Part shown: piece by piece, positions 2,428 to 15,088 of the stretch | Layout of the letters: each line of letters starts with the position of its first letter | Position numbering within the stretch: the stretch's first letter is position 1 | Assembly (NCBI GenBank): GCA_012728015.1 | Contig: JAAYFY010000048.1 | Coordinates: 1-64,000, forward strand | Direction: 5' to 3' | From: Clostridiaceae bacterium | GTDB taxonomy: Bacteria > Bacillota > Clostridia > DSM-8532 | DNA: 64,000 nucleotides | Notes under the pieces: generated by a model | Database searches by the model: none | The model's input: the letters and a program-made list of their open reading frames with translations, nothing else | Told to the model about the DNA's origin: nothing | Position numbers and translations under genes: made by a program

Positions 2428-2456
2428 TTGAATTATAGGGCGCAAAGGTTTATAAT
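2428..2456 (+). promoter_or_regulatory. Sigma-A type promoter of the DUF39 operon
   Basis: TTGAAT at 2428-2433 and TATAAT at 2451-2456 are separated by exactly 17 bases. The pair lies 55 bases before the first gene of the putative homocysteine operon. Confidence 0.75.
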
Positions 2457-2510: not shown

Positions 2511-3659
2511 ATGAAGACGATAGCAGAAATCAATGAACGCATCAAAAACCGGAAAGCTGTGGTTGTCACGGCTGAAGAGATCATCGACCTCGTGGAGGAG
2601 AAGGGCGTCAAAAAGGCTGCCCAGGAAGTGGACGTGGTTACCACGGGCACCTTCGGCCCCATGTGCTCCAGCGGCATGTTCATAAATTTTGGCCACCCAA
2701 AGCCGGGCATAAAGATGACCAGGACATGGCTCAACGATGTTCCTGCCTTCTCGGGCCTTGCGGCTGTTGATGCATATGTGGGGGCCACCGAGATGTCGGA
2801 GCGCCAGGGCATGCAGTATGGGGGCGCCCATGTGATACAGGATTTTATAGATGGAAAGGATATCCGCCTCTATGCCGAAAGCTACGGGACCGACTGTTAC
2901 CCCAGGCGCGATATCAGGACCACCATCAACAAACATAATGTGAACCAGGCTTATCTTTATAACCCGAGAAACTGCTATCAGAACTATCCGGCCGCGACCA
3001 ATTCTTCTGACAAGATCATGTATACATATATGGGGACGCTGCTTCCCGGATTCGGCAACGTGACCTACTCCACCTCGGGCGAACTGAGCCCGCTTATGAA
3101 TGATCCTGAATACCGGACCATAGGCATCGGTACCCGGATATTCCTTGGCGGTACCCAGGGCTTTGTGGCTTGGGAAGGTACCCAGCACGATCCCGGACAG
3201 GCACGCCTTGAAAACGGGACTCCTGTCAGTTCCGCAGGAACCCTGGCAGTGATCGGGGATGCCAAGAAAATGAGCAGCAGGTACATCCGGGCAGCCATCT
3301 TTGACAGGTATGGAGTAACCCTGTTTGTGGGAATTGGAATACCCATCCCCATGCTGGATGAAGATATGCTGATAAAAACCGCGGTTAGAAACAGGGATAT
3401 CGTGACTACCCTGGTGGACAAAAGCGGTCGTGAGGATTTGGGAATACGCCTGAGCTATGAGACCTTGCGCAGCGGCTGGGTTGATATAAAGGGCAGGCGG
3501 GTTCCCACGGCACCCCTGTCCAGCCTTAAGATCGCCCGTGATATAGCCAGTACTCTGAAGGATTGGATAGCAAACGGCCAGTTCCTGCTGAGCGAACCGG
3601 TTGAGAAGCTTCCTTACAGGAAGGAACGGCTCAACAGCCTTGAAATCAGGGGAGAATAG
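2511..3659 (+). CDS. DUF39/COG1900 homocysteine biosynthesis protein
   Basis: A 382-residue protein recognisable as the COG1900/DUF39 (HcyBio) family by its N-terminal VVTTGTFGPMCSSG, the stretch GTRIFLGGTQGF in the middle and the DRYGVTLFVGIGIPIP segment near residue 270. In Methanosarcina acetivorans the homologue MA1821, with a NIL-ferredoxin, is genetically required to make homocysteine from aspartate semialdehyde and sulfide. This member lacks CBS domains at the C-terminus, like the short MA1821-type. Start 2511 is preferred to the ATG at 2496 because GGTGGGG precedes it at good distance. It is followed after 13 bases by the NIL-ferredoxin gene and then by the UPF0280 gene, so the whole triad is one operon. 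Biochemical role in this organism is inferred. Confidence 0.87.
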   Translation: MKTIAEINERIKNRKAVVVTAEEIIDLVEEKGVKKAAQEVDVVTTGTFGPMCSSGMFINFGHPKPGIKMTRTWLNDVPAFSGLAAVDAYVGATEMSERQGMQYGGAHVIQDFIDGKDIRLYAESYGTDCYPRRDIRTTINKHNVNQAYLYNPRNCYQNYPAATNSSDKIMYTYMGTLLPGFGNVTYSTSGELSPLMNDPEYRTIGIGTRIFLGGTQGFVAWEGTQHDPGQARLENGTPVSSAGTLAVIGDAKKMSSRYIRAAIFDRYGVTLFVGIGIPIPMLDEDMLIKTAVRNRDIVTTLVDKSGREDLGIRLSYETLRSGWVDIKGRRVPTAPLSSLKIARDIASTLKDWIANGQFLLSEPVEKLPYRKERLNSLEIRGE

Positions 3660-3672
3660 GCGGAGGTAATAT

Positions 3673-4080
3673 ATGAAGACCATCAAAATCAGTATTTATT
3701 ATCCCGTGGATAAGATTACGGTACCCCTTGTCAGCACGCTGATTAAGGAGTTTGACCTTCAGGTCAATATTCTGCATGCCGATATCAGCCTAAACAAGAC
3801 TGGAACCCTGGTGGCGGACCTGGCCGGGGATGAGAGGAATGTGGATGACGCCCTGAGATACATCGAGGAGCAGGGCATCGGATACAAGCTGTTCAATAAA
3901 CAGCTGATCTGGCATGAGGAACTGTGCGTCCACTGCGGGGCGTGCACGGCGGTCTGTCCCTCCCATGCCCTGACCATGTCGCATGAAACCTGGAGCCTTG
4001 AGTTCGACAAGGAAAAATGCCTGGTGTGCGGATTGTGCACAAAGGCCTGTCCGCTGAACGTCATGAGCCTTCAGGATTAG
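3673..4080 (+). CDS. NIL domain protein with two [4Fe-4S] ferredoxin motifs
   Basis: A 135-residue protein with an N-terminal NIL-type ligand-binding domain (about residues 1-75) and a C-terminal bacterial ferredoxin domain. Two cluster motifs are intact: C85, C88, C91, C95 and C116, C119, C122, C126, each ending in CP. It matches the architecture of MA1822, the partner of the COG1900 protein in methanogen homocysteine biosynthesis, where it is thought to take part in reductive sulfur handling. The ribosome-binding site GGAGG is well placed before the ATG. The gene sits between the DUF39 and UPF0280 genes with only short spacers. An alternative reading as a generic ferredoxin is unlikely given the NIL domain and neighbours. 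Confidence 0.9.
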   Translation: MKTIKISIYYPVDKITVPLVSTLIKEFDLQVNILHADISLNKTGTLVADLAGDERNVDDALRYIEEQGIGYKLFNKQLIWHEELCVHCGACTAVCPSHALTMSHETWSLEFDKEKCLVCGLCTKACPLNVMSLQD

Positions 4081-4085
4081 TCGTC

Positions 4086-4808
4086 ATGTATGCCAGGCGT
4101 TTTTACAGGGATGACTACAAAGCAGAAAACCTCGTATTTTTTCGTGCCGCGGTTGGGCAAACCGATCTGTACATAGGTGCCTGGACCGACCTCCACAAAG
4201 AGGCTATCGGGGCTGTAAAGGAGTGCAGGGGCATTCTTGAGGAGTATATCAGAAGGCACCCGGAATTCTTGCACAGCCTGGAACCTGTCGATCCTCTTGC
4301 AGGCGCGCCGGCCATCGTGATGGAAATGTGCGAAGCGGCAAGGATAGCCGGCGTCGGTCCAATGGCGGCGGTAGCGGGTGCCGTAGCCAGGTTTGTGGGG
4401 CGGAAACTCGTTGAGTTATCCGGCGAAGTAATAGTTGAAAACGGCGGTGACATATTCCTGCACAGCAGGAGCGACAGGAGGATAGGGATATTTGCCGGAA
4501 ATTCCCCATTAAGCGGCAGGCTGGGGATCCTGGTCAGGAAGGAGATGTCCCCATGCGGGATCTGCACCTCCTCAGGAACGGTGGGCCATTCCCTGAGTTT
4601 CGGCAAGGCGGATGCTGCGCTGGTGGTATCCAAAGACACGTCATTGGCCGACGCATGTGCCACCGCGCTGGGAAACAGGGTTAAGACGCCGGAAGACGTG
4701 GAGGAAGCCCTTAACTTCATAACCTGCAAGCCGGGTGTTATCGGGGCGCTGGTGATCATAGGCGAATTTGTGGGGGCGCTGGGTGATATTGAGCTGGTAA
4801 AGCTGTAA
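4086..4808 (+). CDS. UPF0280 (COG2122) ApbE-like protein
   Basis: A 240-residue protein of the UPF0280/COG2122 family, distantly related to ApbE flavin transferases. Family landmarks include GPMAAVAGA near residue 100, ENGGDIFL, a glycine-rich SPCGICTSSGTVGHS stretch and the Cys- and Asp-rich KADAALVVSKDTSLADACATAL. The frame is open from 4017, but that would overlap the ferredoxin by 64 bases, so the ATG at 4086, five bases after the ferredoxin stop, is taken. In M. acetivorans MA1715 of this family was also implicated in homocysteine formation together with COG1900 and NIL-ferredoxin. Its co-occurrence here as the last gene of the triad supports the same pathway; the exact reaction is not established. 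Confidence 0.87.
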   Translation: MYARRFYRDDYKAENLVFFRAAVGQTDLYIGAWTDLHKEAIGAVKECRGILEEYIRRHPEFLHSLEPVDPLAGAPAIVMEMCEAARIAGVGPMAAVAGAVARFVGRKLVELSGEVIVENGGDIFLHSRSDRRIGIFAGNSPLSGRLGILVRKEMSPCGICTSSGTVGHSLSFGKADAALVVSKDTSLADACATALGNRVKTPEDVEEALNFITCKPGVIGALVIIGEFVGALGDIELVKL

Positions 4809-4865: not shown

Positions 4866-5085
4866 CAATAATCTTATGAACCTGTACCTATCATATATTA
4901 TTCACCAAGTGGTGTAAAGAATGACAGGTTAACTCTAAAATCCAGCCCGGGGCAATGGCTTTCGGGCGTGGGGAATCCTGTGGAAACCTGTTGATAGAAC
5001 CGGAAATTTCGGCTGTCCTTGTCTATTTATGCTGACGCTTCCGGGCGGTCCGGCGGGTTTTATTTCCCAGAAAGAGCCGTCCGGA

Positions 5086-5116: not shown

Positions 5117-5179
5117 CACAATGCTTAGATTAGCCGAAATGTATTTTGAAATGTGTTTATTTGATACGGGGTGTTGGTT

Positions 5180-5998
5180 ATGCATCAAGGCAGAGAGATG
5201 CTCAAGTCTGCCAAAAGGATTGTAATCAAGGTCGGTACATCCACGCTGACCCATGAAAACGGGAAGATGAACCTAATTCGCATGGATCGGCTGGCACTGG
5301 TCATTGCCGAGCTGATGAATGACAACAAGGAAGTTATCCTTGTGTCTTCGGGAGCCATTGGCGTGGGAATGGGCAAGTTTAACCTGAGGAAAAGGCCTGA
5401 TGTAATGGGCATGAAGCAAGCCCTTGCCGCAATCGGCCAGTGCGAGCTGATGAACATTTACAGCCGCCTCTTTGCTGCCTATAATCATATCGTTGCCCAG
5501 GTTTTGCTTACCAGGACCGACCTGGACCACGACGTTAAAAGGTCCAATGTAATGAATACCTTCAACAGCCTTATGGAATTCGGCGTTCTTCCCATAGTCA
5601 ATGAGAACGACACTGTATCAGTAGACGAGATACAGCGCCTGAACATGTTTGGCGATAATGATACCCTTTCGGCTGTAGTGGCCAAGCTGGTATCAGCGGA
5701 TCTATTGATTATCCTGTCCGATGTGGACGGCCTTTTCGATAAAAACCCGGGAAAGAACGAGGAATGCAAACTTATTTCGGTTGTTGAGGATATTGACGAC
5801 ACAGTGCTGGGCTATGCCGAGGGAAAAGGGACCGGCAGGGGGACCGGGGGGATGATCACCAAACTGGGCGCCGCAAAGATTGTCACAGAAGCCGGTGTCA
5901 ACATGGTTATCGCAAATGGCAGGGACCCCGTCGTGATTCTGGATATCCTCAAAGGGGAGGATATCGGTACCCTGTTTGTGAGAAAAGAGAAAAAATGA
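5180..5998 (+). CDS. proB: Glutamate 5-kinase, short form without PUA domain
   Basis: Catalyses ATP-dependent phosphorylation of glutamate to glutamyl 5-phosphate, the first step of proline synthesis. The 272-residue chain is an amino-acid kinase domain only: IVIKVGTSTL near the start, VLVSSGAIGVGMG, NENDTVSVDE, FGDNDTLSA, and the DVDGLFDKNP and GTGGMITKL segments. The C-terminal PUA domain of the E. coli enzyme is absent, as in many clostridial forms. Start choice is uncertain: GTG at 5171, ATG at 5180 (GGGGTG seven bases upstream) or ATG at 5198 all fit. proA is not adjacent, which is unusual but not unique. A strong terminator follows. Confidence 0.92.
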   Translation: MHQGREMLKSAKRIVIKVGTSTLTHENGKMNLIRMDRLALVIAELMNDNKEVILVSSGAIGVGMGKFNLRKRPDVMGMKQALAAIGQCELMNIYSRLFAAYNHIVAQVLLTRTDLDHDVKRSNVMNTFNSLMEFGVLPIVNENDTVSVDEIQRLNMFGDNDTLSAVVAKLVSADLLIILSDVDGLFDKNPGKNEECKLISVVEDIDDTVLGYAEGKGTGRGTGGMITKLGAAKIVTEAGVNMVIANGRDPVVILDILKGEDIGTLFVRKEKK

Positions 5999-11955: not shown

Positions 11956-11967
11956 ATAGTAAAAATC

Positions 11968-12209
11968 AAATAGTGCATGGCGGTGCATGGAAAATGCCTG
12001 CGCTTTTGCGCATGAGGGAAGCGGGTGAGAATCCCGCACTGTCCCAGCAACCGTGAAGCTGACAAAAACGGCGTGTGCCACTGGATCTATGATCTGGGAA
12101 GGTGCCGTTGGAGGATGAGGCAAAGTCGGTAGACCTGCCGCCGTGTTTGGTTTCTTCTGGGTAAAGAGCAGGCCATAAGGCCTGTTGATGGATTGTGCGC
12201 ACGATCCTG
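11968..12209 (+). ncRNA. Cobalamin riboswitch
   Basis: The leader of the btuFCD operon contains the hallmark cobalamin aptamer segments: GGGAAGCGGGTGAGAATCCCGC, ACTGTCCCAGCAACCGTGA and a B12-box region with GCCACTGG, then GGATGAGGCAAAGTCGG and AGACCTGCCG (each quoted piece is contiguous in 12014-12140). Together with the terminator immediately downstream it forms a transcriptional OFF switch: B12 binding should favour termination and stop expression of the uptake genes. The promoter lies at 11927-11955. Confidence 0.95.
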
Positions 12210-12299: not shown

Positions 12300-13199
12300 G
12301 TGAGAAAATTTCTGTCCATGCTGATGATCCTCATGCTGTTTGCAGCCATGGCCGGCTGCGGAGCCGGTCACTCGGGAGAAGGGGTCCGCGTTATTGACAG
12401 CAGGGGAACCGAGGTTGTGTTTGATTCTACGCCAAAGACTATTGTTTCCCTGAGCCCTGCCAATACCGAAATACTCTACGCCCTGGGCGCGGAAGACAGG
12501 ATTATTGCTGTCAGCAATTACTGTAACTATCCCGAAGATACCGGGAACAAACAGAAGCTTCCCACGGGAGAGCAACTGAATATAGAAACCCTGGTCTCCC
12601 TGGATCCCGATGTTATCTTTTTCAGCAAGATGGATGCCATGGAAGACCAGGTAAAGCAGCTGGAGGATGCCGGGATAAAGGTAGTTGTGACAGAGGCCAA
12701 CAGCCTCGATGAAACCTATGAAATTATCAGGATTATCGGAGAAGCTGCAGGAAAGGGCAAGGAAGCCGGGGAACTGGTGGAGAAAATGCGGGAGAGCTTA
12801 GCGACGGTAAAAGAAGAGGCCCGCGGGAAATCCCCGAAGTCCGTGTATGTGGAGGTTTCACCCCTCCAGTACGGCCTGTGGTCCTGTGGCCGTGGAACAT
12901 TTGTGCAGGAGCTTTTGGATCTTATAGGCGCAAGGAATATTTTTGAGGATACTGAGGGCTGGTGTGCTGTGTCCGAAGAACAGGTCATCCAAAGGAACCC
13001 GGATATCATCGTTACCACGGCAAGCCCATTGACCGGAATAGATGACCCTGTGGGTGATATCGCCGGGCGGCCCAACTGGGCCGGAATCAGCGCGGTAAAG
13101 CATGGCCATGTCTATATGCTGGACGGGGATATGCTGTCAAGGCCCGGGCCCAGGCTGGCGGAAGCCGCCAGGGAACTCCTGGGGCTGATGGATGAGTGA
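12300..13199 (+). CDS. btuF: Cobalamin (corrinoid) ABC transporter substrate-binding lipoprotein
   Basis: A 299-residue periplasmic-binding-fold lipoprotein of the BtuF/FhuD class. The signal peptide ends in a lipobox with Cys20 (AMAGC). The domain features RVIDSRGTEV, IVSLSPANTEILYALG and DPDVIF are typical of helical-backbone metal-chelate receptors. Start is GTG at 12300 with GGAGG nine bases upstream. The cobalamin riboswitch directly in front identifies the ligand as a corrinoid rather than iron-siderophore or heme, although motifs alone would not decide this. It is the first gene of btuF-btuC-btuD; its stop is followed by the btuC ribosome-binding site. Confidence 0.9.
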   Translation: MRKFLSMLMILMLFAAMAGCGAGHSGEGVRVIDSRGTEVVFDSTPKTIVSLSPANTEILYALGAEDRIIAVSNYCNYPEDTGNKQKLPTGEQLNIETLVSLDPDVIFFSKMDAMEDQVKQLEDAGIKVVVTEANSLDETYEIIRIIGEAAGKGKEAGELVEKMRESLATVKEEARGKSPKSVYVEVSPLQYGLWSCGRGTFVQELLDLIGARNIFEDTEGWCAVSEEQVIQRNPDIIVTTASPLTGIDDPVGDIAGRPNWAGISAVKHGHVYMLDGDMLSRPGPRLAEAARELLGLMDE

Positions 13200-13216
13200 T
13201 TAAGGAGGGGGACCGG

Positions 13217-14281
13217 ATGCCAGACGCCGGGGGCAGGCTGACAAAAGGCATATGGAACATGTGGGTTTTTATCCTTGGCATCATACTGTTTGCGATGGTA
13301 CTGTTTGTCGCTGTTTCCCTCGGAAGCGTTCCCATATCGCTTTCCGATACCTGGAACATCCTGATCAGGCACCTTTTCGGGAAAGGCGACATGACCGGGA
13401 TACAAAGCGGTACCGAAACTATCATAGCCATGGTGCGGATGCCCCGTGTGCTTCTGGCTGCCATGACCGGCGGAGCGTTGTCCCTGGCAGGGGCTGTGAT
13501 GCAAAGCCTTTTAAAAAACCCGTTGGCCGACGGGTCAACCCTCGGCGTATCTTCCGGCGGCGCGCTGGGTGCCGTATTATCCATAGTCCTGGGGATACGC
13601 CTCAGCTTTTCGCCTGAACTTGGGCTAGCCTTGAGCAGCGTCGCTTTTTCGTTCCTGTCCCTGGTATTAATCCTCACACTGGCCTACAGGATTGACCGCA
13701 GCCTTTCCACCAATACCATAATTCTAACCGGCGTCATCTTCTCCATGCTGGCAGGGAGCATCACCAGCCTTTTGGTTGTGCTGTCGGGCGACAGCCTGAA
13801 ACAGGTTGTGTTCTGGTCCATGGGGTCTTTTTCAGGAAAGGGATGGAACCATGTGATCCTTATGGCGCCTGTCTTCCTGGCCGGAAGCCTCGGGATAATC
13901 GCTTTTTCCAAGGAGCTGAATGCCTTTTCCCTCGGGGAAAAACAGGCGCGTTACATAGGGGTTGACACCAAGGCGGTCAAAATTGCCCTGCTGGTGATGA
14001 CATCGGTCCTTATCGGGGTTTCGGTTTCGGTCAGCGGCAACATAGGCTTTGTAGGCCTCGTGATACCCCATATCACCCGGATGGTTACGGGGCCGGATCA
14101 CAGGAAGCTGCTGCCCGTGTCCCTGATAACGGGCGGGATGTTCATGGTACTGACCGATCTTATGTCAAGGACGCTGCTCAGCCCGGAAGAGTTTCCGGTG
14201 GGCATCGTTACTTCTTTTACCGGGGCTGTTATATTCATTGTCATATTCTATAAATATAACCGGCTGAACAAGAGATTTTAG
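13217..14281 (+). CDS. btuC: Cobalamin ABC transporter permease
   Basis: A 354-residue integral membrane protein of the FecCD/BtuC family with about ten hydrophobic segments. It has the family signatures RMPRVLLAAMTGGALSLAGA, KNPLADGSTLGVSSGGALGA and, near the C-terminus, GNIGFVGLVIPHITRMVTGP, the coupling region that contacts the ATPase. The frame reaches back to a GTG overlapping the btuF stop, but AAGGAGG before the ATG at 13217 decides the start. It forms the transmembrane path for corrinoid import with the flanking btuF and btuD products. Confidence 0.93.
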   Translation: MPDAGGRLTKGIWNMWVFILGIILFAMVLFVAVSLGSVPISLSDTWNILIRHLFGKGDMTGIQSGTETIIAMVRMPRVLLAAMTGGALSLAGAVMQSLLKNPLADGSTLGVSSGGALGAVLSIVLGIRLSFSPELGLALSSVAFSFLSLVLILTLAYRIDRSLSTNTIILTGVIFSMLAGSITSLLVVLSGDSLKQVVFWSMGSFSGKGWNHVILMAPVFLAGSLGIIAFSKELNAFSLGEKQARYIGVDTKAVKIALLVMTSVLIGVSVSVSGNIGFVGLVIPHITRMVTGPDHRKLLPVSLITGGMFMVLTDLMSRTLLSPEEFPVGIVTSFTGAVIFIVIFYKYNRLNKRF

Positions 14282-14332
14282 AATGGCGGGTGTTATCCGC
14301 AAGCTTTGGAAAGGATTGGTCCGGGAGGCGTC

Positions 14333-15088
14333 ATGCTTGATGTACAAAACCTGAGCGTGCGTATAAATAATAAGTCCATAGTGGATGGGGTCACCTTCCA
14401 TGTGTATGAGAATGACTTTTTTATGCTGACAGGCCCCAACGGCGCTGGCAAAAGTACACTGATAAAGGCCATCATGCGCGTTTATGGCTATAAGGGCAGG
14501 GTCATGCTCAGCGGGCGTGATATCCTGTCCATAAGGCCTAAAAACCTGGCCTCACTGGTGGGCGTGCTGGCCCAGGAGCATCAGCCGCTGTTTCCCCATA
14601 CCGTTTATGAAGTGGTCAGCCTGGGAAGGTATGCCCATATGCGGGGCCTTTTCGGTACCCTCGGCCGTGAGGACAGGGCAAAAATAGAGGAGGCTCTTGC
14701 CATTACCGGCATGGACCATATGGCCGATCAGTCGGTGCTGACACTTTCGGGCGGAGAACTGCAAAGGGTTTACCTGGCCCAGCTGTTTGCCCAGGATCCG
14801 AGCCTCCTGATTCTGGACGAACCCGCAAACCATCTGGATATAAAGTACCAGATAACCATGTTCGATATCATTAAGAAATGGTCGAAAACGCCGGGTAAGG
14901 CGGTTATGGCCGTGGTCCACGACCTTAACACCGCCTTTTGTTACGGTACAAGGGCCCTTCTCATGCACGGGGGAAAGGTATATGCCCAAGGGGAGGTTCC
15001 CCGGGTGCTGACCCGTGAGAACCTGAAAGCAGTCTACTCGGTGGATGTGGCCAGGTGGATGGCCGATCTCATGAAGCGTTGGACATGA
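14333..15088 (+). CDS. btuD: Cobalamin ABC transporter ATP-binding protein
   Basis: A 251-residue ATPase that powers corrinoid import. Walker A is GPNGAGKST, the signature LSGGELQRVYLAQ and Walker B LLILDEPANHLD are intact, and VHDLN supplies the H-loop. The ATG at 14333 follows GGGAGG, so the longer frame from 14306 is not used. It ends the riboswitch-controlled operon and is convergent with the glycosidase gene; only 13 bases separate the two stop codons and no convincing terminator is visible between them. Confidence 0.93.
   Translation: MLDVQNLSVRINNKSIVDGVTFHVYENDFFMLTGPNGAGKSTLIKAIMRVYGYKGRVMLSGRDILSIRPKNLASLVGVLAQEHQPLFPHTVYEVVSLGRYAHMRGLFGTLGREDRAKIEEALAITGMDHMADQSVLTLSGGELQRVYLAQLFAQDPSLLILDEPANHLDIKYQITMFDIIKKWSKTPGKAVMAVVHDLNTAFCYGTRALLMHGGKVYAQGEVPRVLTRENLKAVYSVDVARWMADLMKRWT

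Follow-up and report, generated by a model that had tools for sequence, protein, structure and literature searches.

Homocysteine can be made directly from sulfide by a pathway whose published model includes a protein persulfide, sulfur transfer, reduction by a NIL-ferredoxin, and a COG2122-aided supply of sulfur (PMC5764234, PMC12068725), the sulfur species used setting the number of electrons at two or four (PMC12068725). Genetics in Methanosarcina and Desulfovibrio has tied the three families to homoserine-independent homocysteine synthesis. In Desulfovibrio vulgaris Miyazaki F, methionine rescues mutants in DvMF_1464, DvMF_0262 and DvMF_0044, and the route does not pass through homoserine (PMC5764234). 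When sulfide is plentiful, each of the three genes is important for methionine, with COG2122 and DUF39 fitness correlating at r = 0.98 (PMC5764234). Methanosarcina acetivorans carries an L-aspartate-semialdehyde sulfurtransferase (L-ASST, MA1821–MA1822) and a COG2122 protein, MA1715, which matters at low sulfide and whose mutant recovers when given sulfide, cysteine or homocysteine (cited in PMC5764234). In Dehalococcoides ethenogenes, the genes DET0921–DET0919 lie in a row and have been assigned to the DUF39 pathway (PMC5764234). Members of COG1900 differ in substrate, and one of them, MMP16, makes coenzyme M from sulfoacetaldehyde (PMC12068725).

The window analysed here is a 64,000-nucleotide stretch of a draft Clostridiaceae genome (contig JAAYFY010000048.1), and contains a three-gene operon that very probably encodes this known L-aspartate-semialdehyde sulfurtransferase system, acting in parallel to homoserine dehydrogenase, an acetyl-type MetA, and MetY. 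An original prediction from the sequence had drawn on the genetic need for these families in M. acetivorans; that need stands, but is not confined to this organism, having been found in Desulfovibrio as well (PMC5764234). Earlier work had already described the gene trio, its requirement in bacteria and a bacterial example with the genes side by side (PMC5764234), and Pfam names the family. What is added here is the coexistence of the operon with a complete acetyl-homoserine route, the finding that COG1900 and COG2122 are gained and lost together, relatives apparently reliant on the operon route, and a linkage to aspartokinase in spirochaetes. The discovery is a modest one, earlier reports having covered the pathway, its presence in bacteria and the trio.

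D. vulgaris Miyazaki F has the same three protein families as the window, but with scattered locus numbers and no recognised acyl-homoserine route, whereas here they form one operon, with a complete MetA–MetY pathway elsewhere in the genome. The consecutive D. ethenogenes genes, likened to this operon by pathway assignment, belong to an organism inferred to lack a recognised standard route (PMC5764234); the window's genome has one. M. acetivorans likewise combines COG1900 and NIL-ferredoxin proteins with COG2122, but MA1821 has a CBS domain (PMC12068725) that the COG1900 protein here lacks, and MA1715 is encoded apart from MA1821–MA1822 rather than inside the operon. MMP16/ComF shares the COG1900 fold family and aldehyde-to-thiol chemistry; it differs in that its COG1900 domain is interrupted by a ferredoxin domain, and in its conserved cysteines.

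Organisation and integrity of the operon

Profile searches identified three intact genes on the forward strand: COG1900/DUF39 (Pfam HcyBio, 2511–3659), a NIL-ferredoxin (3673–4080) and COG2122/UPF0280 (4086–4808). They are separated by 13 nt and then 5 nt, and are preceded by a sigma-70-type promoter-like site, TTGAAT-17-TATAAT (2428–2456, forward strand), about 55 nt 5' of the first start codon. This site is kept in three congeners (L014–L016) and recognisable in four further loci (L017–L020), whereas much of the DNA around it has drifted; the pattern alone is no more frequent than in shuffled sequence. Together, the short gaps and the single conserved upstream site support transcription of the three genes as one message. 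No terminator-like site lies directly 3' of position 4808, the nearest being at 5041–5053, before proB. This glutamate 5-kinase-like gene (5171–5998) follows the operon both here and in 12 clostridial loci. At the 5' end, a second in-frame ATG is present at 2496, and a GGTGGGG site 6 nt 5' of the ATG at 2511 favours the latter as the COG1900 start.

Conservation of the genes was seen directly. Comparison with three congeners gave dN/dS values of ~0.05–0.14 for each of the three; purifying selection therefore acts on all of them, and chance open reading frames are excluded. The prediction of three families in one operon behind a single promoter thus agrees with the profile matches, the gaps and the conserved site at 2428–2456, and that of intact genes carrying both [4Fe-4S] motifs with full-length matches, invariant cysteines and purifying selection. 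The complete gene set could be moved as a fragment of ~2.3 kb.

The three proteins and a proposed mechanism

The putative sulfurtransferase subunit, of 382 amino acids, matches PF01837 (HcyBio) across the entire model (positions 1–349 of 349; E 3e-149, 497 bits against a cut-off of 26.2), the domain covering residues 16–360. Just two cysteines are shared by all of the 50 COG1900 sequences compared, Cys52 and Cys129, and they lie 77 residues apart. The same spacing separates two near-universal cysteines of MA1821, the essential Cys54 and the dispensable Cys131 (PMC12068725), and this spacing, together with invariance, suggests that Cys52 corresponds to Cys54, and Cys129 to Cys131. Domain searches of the protein found neither a CBS domain nor a Fer4 match or ferredoxin insert, and no second HcyBio gene was found in the window's genome. 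Identity with the coenzyme M synthase MMP16/ComF was considered and rejected, as the protein scores 122.7 bits with TIGR03287 (cut-off 363.95) and has no ferredoxin insert. An AlphaFold2 model of the protein encoded at 2511–3659 has a mean pLDDT of 91.8. Sequence searches gave no credible solved homologue, and comparison of the model with the PDB gave no fold match (best E 0.067, TM <0.2); a COG1900 protein, once solved, would probably turn out to have a new fold.

The second protein, a putative electron-supply subunit of 135 amino acids, consists of a NIL domain (PF09383, E 6e-15) followed by two Fer4 matches, and the eight cysteines of its two [4Fe-4S] motifs are invariant among 48 sequences. 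The third, of 240 amino acids, is a putative sulfide-capture or persulfide-supply protein that matches NF003323 at 300.7 bits (cut-off 271), and has a solved relative, 2o34 (E 1e-46).

The published model is also the best supported one here, and the operon probably makes homocysteine directly from sulfide; we infer both this product and the following order of steps in this organism. The COG2122 protein would help to capture sulfide and load the COG1900 protein with a persulfide, from which Cys52 would transfer the sulfur to the aldehyde group of aspartate semialdehyde. Electrons from the NIL-ferredoxin would then reduce the thio-intermediate to homocysteine, to be methylated by MetH, and feedback may act through binding of methionine to the NIL domain.

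Distribution among bacteria and linkage to aspartokinase

A scan of genome contigs found 43 loci in Clostridia, a Selenomonadales bin, Bacteroidota, Spirochaetota and Planctomycetota, with the gene order COG1900, NIL-ferredoxin, COG2122 at every locus with a long enough flank. The COG1900 sequence of the window clusters with its clostridial relatives. Across these loci the compact operon is the usual form among bacterial relatives, and the suggestion that a compact bacterial version would be a useful model was overstated, this order being common and the Dehalococcoides set already reported (PMC5764234).

At five spirochaete loci (L047 (4611–5981), L048, L051, L052 and L053) an aspartokinase gene lies 5' of COG1900 and stops no more than a few tens of nucleotides short of its start, an arrangement that likely represents one operon joining substrate supply to the sulfur step. 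Aspartokinase is on the way to aspartate semialdehyde, which the model takes as substrate, and this linkage therefore provides independent evidence from gene context. At another spirochaete locus (L050), a distant ThiF homologue (31% identity) is encoded directly 5' of COG1900. A ThiF/TcdA-like E1 gene also occurs in the window's genome, between metA and metY (L011:7415–8146), and was found in this position in seven of the 14 family genomes read (L083, L084, L087, L088, L091, L093 and L094). These placements may be due to chance, or may reflect an E1-like protein in sulfur supply for homocysteine.

Coexistence with the acetyl-homoserine route

The window's genome (99.87% complete, 97 contigs) was examined by targeted searches for the enzymes of the standard route. 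Homoserine dehydrogenase is encoded on contig C95, a four-domain MetH on C45, and MetA and MetY on C77, where MetA is of the acetyl type (NF047918, 501 bits against a cut-off of 460.5) and MetY matches the homocysteine synthase model NF006096 at 737.6 bits (cut-off 726). The surrounding cluster comprises metA, the ThiF/TcdA-like gene, metY, mnmA and cysK, and the cysK copies sit apart from the three-gene operon. MetX was rejected as a substitute acyltransferase, with no member above cut-off in this genome or the family genomes. By gene content, the acetyl-homoserine pathway is complete, and the operon therefore dispensable.

Both pathways are thus directly seen in one genome. The original prediction had proposed a search for metA/metX, metB, metY and metE/metH, in which missing acyl-homoserine enzymes would favour the operon's role; MetA, MetY and MetH were found and MetX was not, so that these enzymes are not absent. 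The idea of the operon as sole route to homocysteine, replacing a missing pathway, is not borne out, homoserine dehydrogenase, MetA, MetY and MetH all being encoded, and a complete acyl-homoserine pathway had been named as the first half of what would tell against the prediction. Presence of the operon should not be taken to imply that the acyl-homoserine pathway is missing.

Separately, a cystathionine gamma-synthase gene in this genome (L012:3699–5513, contig C40) is frameshifted and fused into a MalY/PatB gene that has lost its 5' half; congeners have full-length open frames. This defect may be an assembly error, or else mark the recent decay of a third route to methionine.

Gain and loss within the family

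The sample comprised 32 draft genomes of the window organism's family. HcyBio is present in 20 of these, and absent from 12, including one of four congeners. COG2122 occurs in 19 genomes, all among the 20 with HcyBio, a directly observed co-occurrence (19/20 versus 0/12; Fisher p 6e-8, phylogenetically uncorrected) whose sole exception, G023, has no COG2122 and a COG1900 gene truncated at the end of a contig. MetA is encoded in 29 of the 32, and MetY scored above cut-off in 27. The three genomes without MetA (G021, G023 and G025) all have HcyBio, and all 12 without HcyBio have MetA; this is the expected direction, with a p value that is not significant (Fisher p 0.27, relatedness uncorrected).

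G021 and G025 (91 and 97% complete) keep the operon in the absence of MetA, MetX or MetY above cut-off. In G021, ~60 C-terminal metY codons survive (L097:10459–10653, contig C115) in the middle of a 27.7-kb contig with unrelated genes around them, a setting more suggestive of a leftover from gene loss than of a gap in the assembly. The evidence from absence is weakened in that the genomes are drafts, and metA and metY are adjacent, so their absences are not independent. On gene content, these two relatives apparently depend on the operon route, and the two homocysteine routes would be interchangeable in the family, the standard one being retained more often.

A broader reading, which we put forward tentatively and think somewhat less probable than its opposite, is that the two routes operate side by side, switched by the supply of sulfide and reduced ferredoxin, and that their repeated losses amount to a natural experiment on interchangeability in vivo, involving a COG1900 fold with no solved relative. 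The timing with which this organism uses each route is likewise inferred. The family offers close relatives with both routes, the operon only, or the standard route only, and is suited to genetic and heterologous tests.

Alternative roles

Were the COG1900 protein to act on another aldehyde, the operon would make a different thiol, as MMP16 does in forming coenzyme M, and the MetA–MetY pathway would make all of the homocysteine. The varied substrates of COG1900 members (PMC12068725), and the completeness of the acetyl-homoserine route in this genome, are consistent with such a role. We nevertheless think it very unlikely, given the low score with the MMP16 model (122.7 versus 364 bits), the lack of a ferredoxin insert, cysteines that fit the L-ASST type, the aspartokinase linkage in spirochaetes, and the two relatives that retain the operon after loss of MetA and MetY. 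Homocysteine could also be a side product of an operon devoted to assimilation at low sulfide, or to persulfide supply for cysteine or Fe-S cluster synthesis. The importance of MA1715 at low sulfide, and the three compounds named above that rescue its mutant (cited in PMC5764234), point in this direction, but the D. vulgaris trio matters for methionine when sulfide is ample, with the close fitness correlation given above (PMC5764234), and the cysK copies of the window's genome lie elsewhere; this role appears highly improbable.

Least probable of all is that the operon is a redundant remnant in the course of being lost, as it has been from several family genomes, with MetA–MetY doing the work here. 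Its absence from 12 of the 32 genomes, one of them a congener, is what such decay would produce, yet in the window the open frames are intact, the promoter is conserved, purifying selection is strong and the catalytic residues are invariant, and the methionine route that is broken in this genome is instead that of cystathionine synthase with PatB. 

A role in homocysteine synthesis, which the original prediction had put forward, is the favoured reading and very probable, being supported by the family matches, Cys52 and Cys129, the eight ferredoxin cysteines, purifying selection, co-occurrence with COG2122, the gene complements of G021 and G025, the spirochaete aspartokinase genes and the Desulfovibrio genetics.

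Riboswitches and regulation

An Rfam scan found no element near the three-gene operon, and no SAM riboswitch 5' of it or in the metA–metY cluster; a single SAM-I riboswitch was found in the window's genome, 5' of metK. The Rfam and SAM-I scans thus gave no sign of methionine-type regulation of the operon, which counts against a role in homocysteine synthesis. Within the window, Rfam matched a single element, a cobalamin riboswitch at 11964–12156. It precedes a probable B12-uptake operon (12300–15088) encoding a binding protein, a permease and an ATPase, which agrees with the presence of a B12-dependent MetH.
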